Shown: in pieces, positions 36,187-50,997 of the stretch
How the letters are laid out: each line of letters starts with the position of its first letter
Numbering within the stretch: position 1 is the stretch's first letter
Origin: Burkholderia plantarii
Lineage (GTDB): Bacteria; Pseudomonadota; Gammaproteobacteria; Burkholderiales; Burkholderiaceae
Direction: 5' to 3'
Assembly: GCF_001411805.1 (NCBI RefSeq)
Contig: NZ_CP007212.1
Location: 992,001 to 1,056,000 of the forward strand
DNA length: 64,000 nucleotides
Made by a program: the position numbers and the translations under genes
The notes under the pieces: model-generated
Told to the model about the DNA's origin: nothing
Database searches by the model: none
Seen by the model: only the letters and a program-made list of their open reading frames with translations

Positions 36187-36522
36187 ATGCTGAAGAAGAT
36201 TCTGGTGGTGGCGATGTGGTTCGCGGGGCTTGCGCAGGCGTGGGCCGCCGTCGACGTCAATCAGGCGAACAGCGACGCGCTGCGTGGCATCAAGGGCATC
36301 GGCGCCGCGAAGGCGCAGGCGATCGTCGACGAGCGCAACGCGCACGGCCCGTTCAAGGATACCGCCGACCTCGCGCGGCGCGTGAAGGGCATCGGTCCGA
36401 AATCGGTCGACCGGCTGGTGTCCGAGGGCCTCACGGTCGGCCCGGCCAAGACCCCGGCCAAGACCCCGGCGGCGCCCGCCGCGCGAGGTGCTGCCGCGCC
36501 GAACAAGGCTGCGCGCAAGTGA
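36187..36522 (+). CDS. ComEA-like helix-hairpin-helix DNA-binding protein
   Basis: This 111-residue protein has a signal peptide (MLKKILVVAMWFAGLAQAWA) and two helix-hairpin-helix motifs (LRGIKGIGAAKAQAIVDERN and ARRVKGIGPKSVDRLVSEG). The tail is low complexity (AKTPAKTPAAPAARG) and basic. Periplasmic proteins of this type bind incoming DNA in naturally competent bacteria. Many non-competent species also carry one, so a role in uptake is only probable. Confidence 0.85.
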   Translation: MLKKILVVAMWFAGLAQAWAAVDVNQANSDALRGIKGIGAAKAQAIVDERNAHGPFKDTADLARRVKGIGPKSVDRLVSEGLTVGPAKTPAKTPAAPAARGAAAPNKAARK

Positions 36523-36599
36523 TGCCGCACCGCGCGCGACAGGCGCGCGGTGCGGCATGCCTCGGAGCAACTCCTTCAGCCGTCCTGGTTCGACGGTGT

Positions 36600-36625
36600 C
36601 CCGCAGCGTTGCTGCGGGTTTTTTT
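36600..36625 (+). terminator. Terminator after the comEA-like gene
   Basis: CCCGCAGC and GCTGCGGG around a GTT loop, followed by seven T. Confidence 0.9.
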
Positions 36626-36781
36626 ACGTGAGGCGCGAGCGCGGCGCGCGATGAATGACCATGAGAAACGATTGCGGCCAACGACCGAGACGCGGACAGG
36701 GACATTCCCGGCGCCGACACGACCGATCCGGCGCTGGATTACAATCGACGGATTCATCGGCCTCGCATTCACTTATCGCTC

Positions 36782-37684
36782 ATGGCTTACAAAACTATTG
36801 AAGACACGATCGGCAACACGCCGCTCGTGCAGTTGGTCCGCGTCACTGACGACGAGATCCGGGCCCGCAACAACGTGATCCTCGCGAAGCTCGAAGGCAA
36901 CAATCCCGCCGGTTCGGTCAAGGACCGGCCGGCGCTGTCGATGATCCGCAAGGCCGAGGAACGCGGCCGCATCAAGCCCGGCGACACGCTGATCGAGGCG
37001 ACGAGCGGCAACACCGGCATCGCGCTCGCGATGGCGGCCGCGATCCGCGGCTACCGGATGGTGCTGATCATGCCCGAGGATCTGTCGGTCGAGCGCCGCC
37101 AGAGCATGGCCGCCTACGGCGCGGAAATCGTGCTGACGCCGACCAAGGGCGGCATGGAACTCGCGCGCGACCTCGCCGACCAGATGCAGCGCGAAGGCAA
37201 GGGCGTGATCCTCGACCAGTTCGCGAACCCGGACAATCCGCTCGCGCACTACGAGACGACCGGCCCGGAAATCTGGCGCGAAACCGAAGGCCGCATCACG
37301 CATTTCGTCTCGGCGATGGGCACCACCGGCACCATCATGGGCACCACGCAGTTCCTGAAGGAGCAGCGCCAGAGCATCGAGATCATCGGCGCCCAGCCGG
37401 AGGAAGGCTCGCGCATTCCCGGCATCCGCAAGTGGCCCGAGGCCTACCTGCCGAAGATCTTCGACCGCAGCCGCATCGACCGCGTCGAGAACGTGAGCCA
37501 GGCCGCCTCGGAAGCGATGGCGCGCAAGCTCGCGGCGATCGAGGGCCTGTTCTGCGGGATCTCGTCCGGCGGCGCCTGCGAGGTGGCGATGCGGATCGCG
37601 CGGCAGGTCGAGAACGCGACGATCGTGTTCATCGTCTGCGACCGCGGCGACCGCTATCTGTCGACGGGCGTGTTTCCCGCCTGA
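36782..37684 (+). CDS. cysM: Cysteine synthase B
   Basis: This 300-residue PLP enzyme makes cysteine from O-acetylserine and sulfide (or thiosulfate). The PLP lysine is in NNPAGSVKDRPAL, and TSGNTGIALAMAAA binds the substrate. Family features point to CysM rather than CysK: the opening TIEDTIGNTPLVQLVRV and the QPEEGSRIPGIRKWPE segment. It is monocistronic, ending at a bidirectional terminator shared with mltB. Confidence 0.94.
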   Translation: MAYKTIEDTIGNTPLVQLVRVTDDEIRARNNVILAKLEGNNPAGSVKDRPALSMIRKAEERGRIKPGDTLIEATSGNTGIALAMAAAIRGYRMVLIMPEDLSVERRQSMAAYGAEIVLTPTKGGMELARDLADQMQREGKGVILDQFANPDNPLAHYETTGPEIWRETEGRITHFVSAMGTTGTIMGTTQFLKEQRQSIEIIGAQPEEGSRIPGIRKWPEAYLPKIFDRSRIDRVENVSQAASEAMARKLAAIEGLFCGISSGGACEVAMRIARQVENATIVFIVCDRGDRYLSTGVFPA

Positions 37685-37728: not shown

Positions 37729-37770
37729 GCCCATGAAAAAAGCGCCTTGACCGGCGCTTTTTTCATGGGC
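37729..37770. terminator. Bidirectional terminator with perfect 18-bp stem
   Basis: GCCCATGAAAAAAGCGCC (37729-37746) and its exact reverse complement (37753-37770) enclose a TTGACC loop. A-runs and T-runs on each side of the GC core serve cysM on the plus strand and mltB on the minus strand. Confidence 0.93.
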
Positions 37771-49231: not shown

Positions 49232-49720
49232 ATGAGAACCCAACGTCAACCAGTACGCGCGCTGGACAAGCTCGACCGCCGGATCCTGCGGCTGCTCCAG
49301 CAGGACGGACGCATGGCGATGAAGGACCTGGCCGAGCAGGTCGGACTGACCGTCACGCCGTGCATCGAGCGCGTGCGACGCATGGAGCGCGACGGCGTGA
49401 TCACCGGCTATCACGCACGCGTCGACCCCGCCCAGCTGGGCGCCGCGCTGCTGGTGTTCGTCGAGATCACGCTCGATCACAAGAGCGGCAACATGTTCGA
49501 GCAGTTCCGGCGCGAGGTGATGAAGATCGACGAGGTGCTCGAATGCCACCTCGTGTCCGGCGATTTCGACTACCTGATCAAGGCGCGCATCGGCGAGATG
49601 GCAGATTACCGCAAACTGCTCGGCGACATCCTGCTGCAACTGCCCGGCGCGGTGCAGTCGAAGAGCTACGTGGTGATGGAGGAAATCAAGGAGACGCTGA
49701 CGATCGCCGTCGACGACTGA
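49232..49720 (+). CDS. lrp: Lrp/AsnC-family transcriptional regulator
   Basis: This 162-residue protein has the N-terminal helix-turn-helix (LDKLDRRILRLLQQDGRMAMKDLAEQVGLTVTPCIERVRRME) and the C-terminal RAM ligand domain (about 75-155, with ECHLVSGDFDYLIKARIGEM). The CPC-like TPCIERVRRME is typical of global Lrp. It is divergent from dadA, so amino acid-responsive control of D-alanine use is likely. Confidence 0.92.
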   Translation: MRTQRQPVRALDKLDRRILRLLQQDGRMAMKDLAEQVGLTVTPCIERVRRMERDGVITGYHARVDPAQLGAALLVFVEITLDHKSGNMFEQFRREVMKIDEVLECHLVSGDFDYLIKARIGEMADYRKLLGDILLQLPGAVQSKSYVVMEEIKETLTIAVDD

Positions 49721-49744: not shown

Positions 49745-49773
49745 TTGGCAGCATGAGCCGAATACTGTATAAA
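49745..49773 (+). promoter_or_regulatory. Sigma70 promoter of the radical SAM gene
   Basis: TTGGCA (49745-49750), exactly 17 bases, then TATAAA (49768-49773). Transcription would start near 49780, about 48 bases before the gene. The -10 overlaps the LexA box. Confidence 0.75.
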
Positions 49774-49794
49774 TAAACAGTATTCGGCTCATGC
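49751..49794. repeat. Perfect 18-bp inverted repeat around a LexA box
   Basis: GCATGAGCCGAATACTGT (49751-49768) and its exact reverse complement (49777-49794) flank ATAAATAA. As RNA read through from lrp it would form a strong hairpin. The U-run needed for a standard terminator is missing. Confidence 0.9.
49765..49780. promoter_or_regulatory. LexA (SOS) box
   Basis: CTGT-ATAAATAA-ACAG matches the CTGT-N8-ACAG LexA consensus at all eight fixed positions, with an AT-only centre. It covers the -10 of the promoter above, so LexA would repress the downstream radical SAM gene. Confidence 0.85.
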
Positions 49795-49827: not shown

Positions 49828-50997
49828 ATGATGAGTGATCGATCCGATGTCGAATTTCCGGTGGCGCCGCCCGTGCCGCGCAAGGGCCGTGGCGCGGTGG
49901 GCAATCTGCAGGGGCGCTACGAGACGGACCAGCGCGAGCGCGTCGACGACGGCTGGCAGGCGGGCGCCGGCCACGACGCGGGCGACGAGGCAGATGGCGA
50001 CGACGCGGCCGGCCCGCGCCTGCGCACGCTGGTGTTCGACGAGCGCGCGAAAAGCATCCTGACGCGCAACGCCTCGCCCGATATCCCGTTCAACGTCTCG
50101 CTGAACCCGTACCGCGGCTGCGAGCACGGTTGCATCTATTGTTTCGCCCGGCCGACACACAGCTACCTCGGGCTCTCGCCCGGGCTCGATTTCGAGAGCC
50201 GGATCTACGCCAAGGTCAACGCGGCCGAACTGCTCGAACGCGAGCTCGGCAAGCGCGGCTACGTACCCGAGCCGATCGCGCTCGGCGTCAACACCGACGC
50301 CTACCAGCCCTGCGAGCGCGAGCGCCGCATCACGCGCGACGTGATCCAGGTGATGCATGATCACGGGCAGCCGTTCGCGGCGATCACCAAGTCGTCGCTG
50401 ATCGAGCGCGACCTCGACCTGCTCGCGCCGATGGCCGGGCGCGAGCAGGTGATCGCCGCCGTGACCATCACCACGCTCGACGCCGATCTGGCGCGCGCGC
50501 TCGAACCGCGCGCGGCCACGCCGTCGCGGCGGCTGCGCACGATCCGCGCGCTGCGCGAGGCCGGCGTGCCGGTGGGCGTGAGCATCGCGCCGGTGATCCC
50601 GTTCGTCACCGAGCCGGACCTGGAGCGCGTGCTGGAAGCCTGCGCCGAGGCCGGCGCGACGCACGCGAGCTACATCGTGCTGCGGCTGCCGTGGGAAGTG
50701 GCACCGCTCTTTCGCGAATGGCTGGGCGCGCACTTCCCCGACCGCGCCGAGCGCGTGATGGCGCGCGTGCGCGACATGCGCGGCGGCAAGGACTACGAGT
50801 CCGATTTTCGCAGCCGGATGAAGGGCGAGGGCCTGTGGGCCGATCTGCTGAAGCAGCGTTTCCAGAAGGCGGTCAAGCGGCTTGGCCTGAACGAGCGCGC
50901 GCGCGGCATCCTCGATTTCTCGCAGTTCCAGGCGCCGGAGCGCGTGAAGGGCGCCGCGCGCGCGGCGCCCGAGACGCCGCAGCTGAACCTGTTCTGA
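49828..50997 (+). CDS. PA0069-family radical SAM protein (DNA-damage-inducible)
   Basis: This 389-residue protein has the radical SAM 4Fe-4S motif as C98, C102 and C105 (RGCEHGCIYCF), and the PA0069/Rv2578c family pattern GVNTDAYQPCERERRITRDV with TKSSLIERDLDLL. It is a distant relative of spore photoproduct lyase. Its reaction is not known. From memory, PA0069 is one of the few LexA-controlled genes of Pseudomonas aeruginosa, which agrees with the LexA box here and suggests a part in DNA repair. A first 70-residue segment is polar and probably disordered. Two adjacent ATGs (49828 and 49831) follow GAGG. Confidence 0.9.
   Translation: MMSDRSDVEFPVAPPVPRKGRGAVGNLQGRYETDQRERVDDGWQAGAGHDAGDEADGDDAAGPRLRTLVFDERAKSILTRNASPDIPFNVSLNPYRGCEHGCIYCFARPTHSYLGLSPGLDFESRIYAKVNAAELLERELGKRGYVPEPIALGVNTDAYQPCERERRITRDVIQVMHDHGQPFAAITKSSLIERDLDLLAPMAGREQVIAAVTITTLDADLARALEPRAATPSRRLRTIRALREAGVPVGVSIAPVIPFVTEPDLERVLEACAEAGATHASYIVLRLPWEVAPLFREWLGAHFPDRAERVMARVRDMRGGKDYESDFRSRMKGEGLWADLLKQRFQKAVKRLGLNERARGILDFSQFQAPERVKGAARAAPETPQLNLF

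Follow-up and report, generated by a model that had tools for sequence, protein, structure and literature searches.

This report concerns a 64,000-nucleotide stretch of the Burkholderia plantarii genome (contig NZ_CP007212.1; hereafter the window) and, within it, a promoter that carries a LexA-type box, the long palindrome that encloses this box, and the radical S-adenosylmethionine (SAM) gene of the PA0069 family that lies downstream. Across the genus the palindrome keeps its symmetry and not its sequence, and the encoded enzyme ends in a conserved pentapeptide that resembles those which bind the beta sliding clamp. The features of the locus are the following, in coordinates of the window:

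49745-49750, + strand: -35 element TTGGCA, read directly.
49751-49768, + strand: left arm of the palindrome, GCATGAGCCGAATACTGT, filling the spacer between -35 and -10; read directly and seen in covariation.
49765-49780, no strand: LexA-type operator CTGTATAAATAAACAG, overlapping the -10 element.
49768-49773, + strand: -10 element TATAAA, within the operator, at a 17-bp spacing from TTGGCA; read directly.
49769-49776: core between the arms, ATAAATAA; read directly.
49777-49794, + strand: right arm, ACAGTATTCGGCTCATGC, in the putative 5' untranslated region; read directly and seen in covariation.
49828 or 49831 to 50997, + strand: PA0069-family radical SAM gene (388-389 residues), assigned by NF033668, PF04055 and a predicted model with the fold of spore photoproduct lyase (SPL).
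50119..50142, + strand: codons of C97, C101 and C104, the CxxxCxxC 4Fe-4S motif, which are the sole conserved cysteines among 41 aligned members.
50980..50994, + strand: codons of the C-terminal QLNLF, the clamp-binding-like pentapeptide.
49232..49720, + strand: lrp (leucine-responsive regulator), the upstream neighbour; 215.2 bits to NF008370, just under its cut-off of 233, with Pfam AsnC/Lrp domains.

A first-pass annotation of the window had described a LexA consensus box on the -10 of TTGGCA-N17-TATAAA, enclosed by a perfect 18-bp inverted repeat, and direct reading agrees with it on both points (an extended search gives 21 nt that are 95% complementary). CTGTN8ACAG with an AT-rich core is the sequence of a beta/gamma-type LexA operator, and here it overlaps the promoter and is kept ahead of orthologues. 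The eight-base consensus alone is weak evidence, since 0.40 such sites are expected in the window, where CTGTATAAATAAACAG is the only one, and the genome holds 39 against 29 for a reversed-pattern control. We nevertheless reject a chance origin, because the conservation of the box, unlike the frequency of its pattern, is not near chance. All 65 Burkholderia genomes examined have a match to the protein and, once the loci are turned to one strand, all 65 have a LexA-type box (56 exact and nine CTGTN8CCAG) with CTTGGC immediately upstream; the loop starts with ATAAAT in 61 of them. The comparison of relatives' upstream regions that had been proposed as a check therefore finds the box in every genus genome, together with a palindrome that retains most of its symmetry as the arm sequence varies. 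TTGGCA/TATAAA escaped our promoter-calling rule, which requires a T in sixth position of the -10. From the geometry of the promoter, transcription would start near 49780, so the left arm would be promoter spacer outside the gene's own mRNA, and a hairpin would be possible only in DNA or in RNA that reads through from lrp. As a separate observation, one pair of CTGTN8ACAG sites occurs five times in the genome (G000:C1:288794, 493242 and 3158758; G000:C2:509978 and 683119), each time with CTGTAGGCGAAAACAG sites 833-845 bp away; these are probably ribosomal RNA operons, which inflate the count of LexA-like sites.

Outside the genus, the box was sought within about 250 bp of the start in 79 loci (L047-L125), of which 46 have an exact box and 10 a box with one mismatch. 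A further 11 (L099, L103, L104, L106, L107, L111, L113, L115, L116, L117 and L123) carry the alpha-type GTTCN7GTTC within 300 bp of the start. The one-mismatch boxes are weak, because by our own arithmetic chance alone gives one in roughly every ninth locus; the exact and alpha-type boxes are not. Two different LexA motifs precede the radical SAM gene in different groups. L099 is labelled Mycobacterium sp. KBS0706, a label that may be wrong.

PA0069 itself is presumably a member of the P. aeruginosa LexA regulon; the open-licence literature did not confirm this, and we found in it no paper joining LexA to either PA0069 or Rv2578c. On the other hand, a 2012 paper (PMC3323433) predicts that LexA controls splB, a spore photoproduct lyase homologue and very probably the same gene as ours, in both alpha- and beta-Proteobacteria; it lists Burkholderia species, B. 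glumae among them, and states that gamma-Proteobacteria do not show the trait. As LexA control of this gene in Burkholderia is already predicted there, the SOS box itself is not new. We take the authors of this prediction to be Sanchez-Alberola et al. Our data depart from the statement on gamma-Proteobacteria, as given there, in that Pseudomonas loci carry boxes (exact in L109 and L125, with one mismatch in L120), and neither the long palindrome nor the clamp-binding tail is mentioned in the accessible text. SplB-like radical SAM proteins have also been linked to SOS systems, in the portion available of a further paper (PMC3765255).

The palindrome requires a cause beyond LexA, as had been suspected: LexA contacts do not explain it, because the recA and lexA boxes of the same genus lack long arms. 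We counted positions away from the T of CTGT and scored pairing at 6-15, which lie past the bases usually contacted by LexA; the mean is 0.91 in 51 distinct Burkholderia sequences, as against 0.19 at recA boxes (18 distinct; 29 boxes from 30 Burkholderia loci) and 0.25 at lexA boxes (38 distinct; 60 boxes from 30 Burkholderia loci), the two lexA boxes sitting 20 bp apart and so limiting each other's flanks. Among loci outside the genus whose box has at most one mismatch, the mean is 0.53 in Paraburkholderia/Caballeronia (12/12 loci), 0.49 in L059-L072 (12/14) and 0.33 in the remainder (32/53). The 24 other distinct CTGTN8ACAG sites of the window's genome have no more than six of ten outer positions paired, against ten of ten here. 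The arms stop at the -35 element, about 16 pairs from the T of CTGT in most species. As to the lexA promoter of the window's genome (L010), its two CTGTN8ACAG boxes differ in that one core is less AT-rich, and the pair is also present in the other lexA loci fetched.

Arm symmetry is kept and arm sequence is not. In an alignment of 58 distinct sequences (A1), the 12 outer pairs are 80.9% paired, with the two outermost, which are mostly unpaired (49/58 and 47/58), counted in. Double-changed cells number 95 versus 29.9 in shuffles (0/500 as high), and the covariation score is 0.383 versus 0.134, with 0.165 for the best slid version. Such wide variation of arm sequence speaks against the binding of the arms by another sequence-specific protein, one of the roles proposed in the first-pass annotation. 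To our reading, outer arms that go on pairing while their sequence changes look new.

How the arms change bears on whether the symmetry is kept in RNA or in DNA. With the 65 genomes placed on a tree from two genes (midpoint-rooted; 31 of 62 inner branches well supported), parsimony over ten outer pairs gives 42 double swaps between Watson-Crick pairs and four double changes out of an unpaired state, besides single changes that lead seven times to G-U, seven times to A-C and 18 times to other mismatches. An RNA stem tolerates G-U and not A-C. A DNA-level cause, on the other hand, predicts equal numbers of both, because a site of this kind reads G-T or A-C depending on the strand. The arms therefore change together through symmetric intermediates, small as the numbers of these are, in the manner of a quasipalindrome, and the pattern suggests that the palindrome is probably a by-product at the DNA level, formed by templated correction, and not a terminator of lrp. 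The nearest known case is that of the quasipalindrome hotspots of E. coli (thyA; lacZ QP5/QP6), in which, according to the accessible text, a stalled fork copies one arm of an 18-bp inverted repeat onto the other and the repeat turns perfect (PMC6357072, PMC7202029). The likeness lies in the 18-bp repeat and in arms that become perfect; the difference is that we describe a genus-wide evolutionary pattern on a regulatory site and not a mutation rate. In the parts available of two other papers, template switching has been proposed to create and maintain RNA hairpins via compensatory changes (PMC8794818) and to invert the spacer between arms (PMC8604942). Some loops do look like spacer inversions, namely ATGTTTAT of L029 and ATGTTTGT of L159 versus ATAAACAT of L039, and ATATTTAT in 7/12 Paraburkholderia/Caballeronia loci versus ATAAATAT in 28/65 Burkholderia genomes and L057; in so short and AT-rich a core, two or three substitutions would have the same effect. 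The symmetric drift, the equality of G-U and A-C and the lack of a T-run after the stem would all follow from template switching.

The downstream gene is of the PA0069 type, as first annotated, with 458.7 bits to NF033668 against a cut-off of 360; the Rv2578c family (NF038135) is second-best at 239 bits, under its cut-off of 430. Homologues number 7999; of the 120 best, those with a species name that come closest belong to Burkholderia perseverans (98%) and to B. glumae and B. plantarii (95%), which puts the window in that group of Burkholderia. A search of PLSDB gave plasmid-borne relatives at below 60% identity only. More distant second homologues (35-38% identity) occur at G010:C2:3209770-3210654, which holds one in-frame TAG, and at G062:C4:480109-480819.

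That the enzyme is a relative of spore photolyase, another claim of the earlier annotation, holds for the predicted fold and fails for the sequence profile. The six best structural matches of the predicted model (mean predicted local distance difference test score, pLDDT, 78.6) are all SPL (PDB 4fhc and mutants), SPL stands apart from the other listed radical SAM folds in both structural comparisons, and the CxxxCxxC cluster motif accompanies the fold. The enzyme nevertheless differs from SPL in having 12-16% identity, no sequence-profile match, and a variable tail ending in QLxLF. It also lacks a conserved cysteine beyond the three of the cluster, other columns being Cys in at most 14 of the 41 aligned members. 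C140, the number given in PDB titles, is what we take to be the conserved cysteine that serves SPL as hydrogen-atom donor. Since the SPL fold comes without a conserved fourth cysteine, the enzyme probably acts on a different DNA lesion than SPL does.

The conserved clamp-like tail is the most useful lead. It was surveyed in L016-L125, which make up 110 loci (L030 and L046 are one genome), and not in 34 further genus genomes. A Qxx[LMIF][FWPL] motif, conserved as a QxxL[F/L]-type pentapeptide, lies within four residues of the C-terminus in 107 of these loci, and in 101 it ends the protein. Of the 79 loci outside the genus, 76 have it, 72 of them as the very end of the protein. The three misses (L094, L096 and L105) end in near-forms. 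The tail takes the forms QLNLF, QLSLF, QLDLF, QGSLF, QMSLL and others, and the linker before it varies in both length and sequence; by way of background, only 3 of 1179 mechanical open reading frames (ORFs) of at least 150 residues from L046-L125 carry the motif. In the one model available, residues 385-388 have pLDDT below 50 and no secondary structure, as expected of a flexible segment. A review whose accessible text mentions neither radical, photolyase, photoproduct nor PA0069 (PMC11139829) ranks QLDLF first in strength among clamp-binding pentapeptides and assigns QLNLF to DNA polymerase V. The likeness to polymerase V and to the QLDLF consensus thus consists of an identical pentapeptide on a flexible tail, with the difference that our protein is not a polymerase and its clamp binding is a prediction. 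SOS control would be a further trait shared with polymerase V. No paper joining a clamp-binding motif to a radical SAM enzyme was found in the open-licence literature, and among the papers listed there on such pentapeptides, or on LexA boxes that overlap terminators, none deals with this gene. A conserved tail of this kind on an SPL-fold PA0069-family enzyme looks new. As judged from sequence, the tail suggests an enzyme that is brought to DNA by the sliding clamp.

Two genomes offer a natural experiment of sorts. Both G017 and G046 have the radical SAM gene in two pieces, broken near codon 99-113 and lying about 30 and 47 kb apart (L159 and L160 in G017; L161 and L162 in G046). A full-length family member adjoins the 3' piece, 49% identical to the query in G017 and 55% in G046, and these divergent copies have their own LexA-type box and their own QLxLF end. 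A tyrosine recombinase gene (L162:136-1449, minus strand) adjoins the 5' piece in G046, and the two ORFs searched beside the 5' piece in G017 matched no family. The arrangement resembles an integrative element that targets this SOS gene and carries a copy of its own. The presence of both box and tail on the incoming copy supports the view that the two are parts of the gene's working unit.

Two rival accounts of the palindrome have to be weighed. Read as the 3' hairpin of lrp, it would fold in read-through RNA into a stem of 18 bp, tipped by the operator, whose role would be to terminate or protect the mRNA of lrp and to insulate the promoter of the SOS gene; the covariation would then result from selection on RNA. 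This would fit the position of lrp, which lies upstream on the same strand in 65/65 genus genomes (and in L047-L058, L062 and L064), as well as the stable stem-loop that covers the box in most of 18 genus examples folded. The window even offers another long hairpin at a gene end without a T-run of its own, a perfect 16-bp repeat at 36522-36558. Yet in 59/65 genus genomes the stretch from box to start codon has T-runs of 1-2 at most, whereas a run of at least five follows cysM in 24 of 30 (the cysM/mltB control comprised the 30 best-matching of the 65 genomes), and a terminator-calling tool called none at the palindrome. An intrinsic lrp terminator in Burkholderia, as the first-pass annotation had considered, is thus rejected; overlap with a terminator is possible in Paraburkholderia/Caballeronia, because there a T-run of at least four lies between box and start codon in 9/12 loci. 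Furthermore, G-U intermediates are no commoner than A-C, the outer flanks hardly pair beyond shuffles (mean z -0.45; 7/65 at p<=0.05, with about three expected), and outside the genus many loci with an apparent same-strand upstream gene, as judged from mechanical ORFs, have short arms. We regard the lrp hairpin as doubtful on balance. A role of the outer stem in locking the ribosome site of the read-through RNA gains little from the same comparison with shuffles, the outer stem being strong in single species (e.g., L129 and L157). Matches of the region to five microRNA models fell far below their gathering scores and were set aside as an effect of the hairpin. Alternatively, the symmetry could be used in DNA, as a cruciform or as the target of a second dimeric protein that reads shape and tunes promoter opening or LexA release. 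Arms that stop at the -35 element in spite of varying sequence agree with this, and the even treatment of G-U and A-C fits any DNA-level cause. No partner is known, however, symmetry free of sequence would be an unusual target, and the other CTGTN8ACAG sites of the genome do without it; we consider this quite improbable.

The enzyme itself might instead modify RNA, a peptide or a metabolite under stress, with the SPL fold reflecting shared ancestry and the tail binding something else. The want of an SPL-like fourth cysteine would be in keeping with this, as would the profile search of solved structures, whose sole match below 0.001 is SkfB, a peptide-modifying enzyme (0.00031); a single-sequence search of the same structures gave no match. 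Against it stand the separation of SPL from other radical SAM folds, the presence of the gene behind two kinds of LexA box and a tail that fits the clamp consensus, and we hold such a substrate to be unlikely.

In sum, the original observation is confirmed and its interpretation partly supported. The explanation that we favour, by a modest degree, is a LexA-repressed promoter that drives a clamp-docked, SPL-fold DNA-lesion enzyme, with the arms as a mutational by-product. Given the conservation of the box and how LexA works, LexA would cover the -10 in undamaged cells and keep the gene off, and RecA-driven cleavage of LexA would free the promoter upon DNA damage. The product, a radical SAM enzyme with a predicted SPL fold, would probably reverse or process a lesion other than that of SPL by related radical chemistry, and the flexible QLNLF at its C-terminus is most likely a docking site for the beta clamp that brings the enzyme to sites of replication and repair. 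The outer arms would be a quasipalindrome whose near-perfect match is maintained in DNA: short template switches at the fork would transfer a point change from one arm to the other, such that the arm sequence drifts and the symmetry stays. On this view the operator would have seeded the long palindrome, which would be a mere by-product and neither a terminator nor a second binding site.

Several points weigh against this explanation. Neither type of box was found in 12 of the 79 non-genus loci, L079 included, which has only 84 bases upstream and is uninformative on the box. NCBIfam matches up to 0.001 include no SPL family, and the profile search against solved structures, taken to E 10, reached no SPL chain; an SPL fold is in any case no proof of a DNA substrate. 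The QLNLF of polymerase V sits atypically in the clamp pocket, according to the accessible text of the review (PMC11139829), and a short motif can be conserved for another partner. Pairing is partly lost in L018, L020, L021, L023, L027 and L042. The parsimony counts are one of possibly several equal solutions on one partly supported tree, allele exchange could mimic double swaps, and seven versus seven is a small sample (P 0.012 if RNA gave 80% G-U and 0.093 if 70%, both fractions being assumed). Template switching also leaves unexplained why no arms arose at the recA and lexA boxes, whose core is similar; since those boxes of the same genomes lack long arms, seeding by an operator is not general, and we have to assume that a rare event founded the palindrome in the genus ancestor. 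Finally, neutral upkeep across a whole genus needs a high rate of correction.

Beside the subject of terminators, two further observations were made in the window. A small gene (36187-36522, which by eye resembles ComEA) has its stop codon where the hairpin at 36522-36558 starts; a second hairpin, which does have a T-run, follows, the pair spanning 36522-36632. A perfect 18-bp hairpin with A- and T-runs at 37729-37770, after a gene ending at 37684 (cysM by eye) and before a convergent gene, looks like a bidirectional terminator.

A bolder reading joins all of these elements and is tentative as a whole: the widespread SOS-induced SPL-fold family would be a clamp-tethered lesion-reversal enzyme at forks, with chemistry and lesion unlike those of SPL, and the Burkholderia operator would have grown into a self-correcting palindrome, symmetric by mutation pressure and not by selection. 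If true, SOS control and lesion repair would be connected in a new way, through a direct-reversal enzyme carried by the replication clamp, and the tail, as a single peptide, offers an immediate handle on it. The palindrome would document, in nature and across a genus, how mutation bias shapes an operator. Covariation need not, then, imply a selected RNA structure, which calls for caution wherever covarying stems are read as functional RNA.
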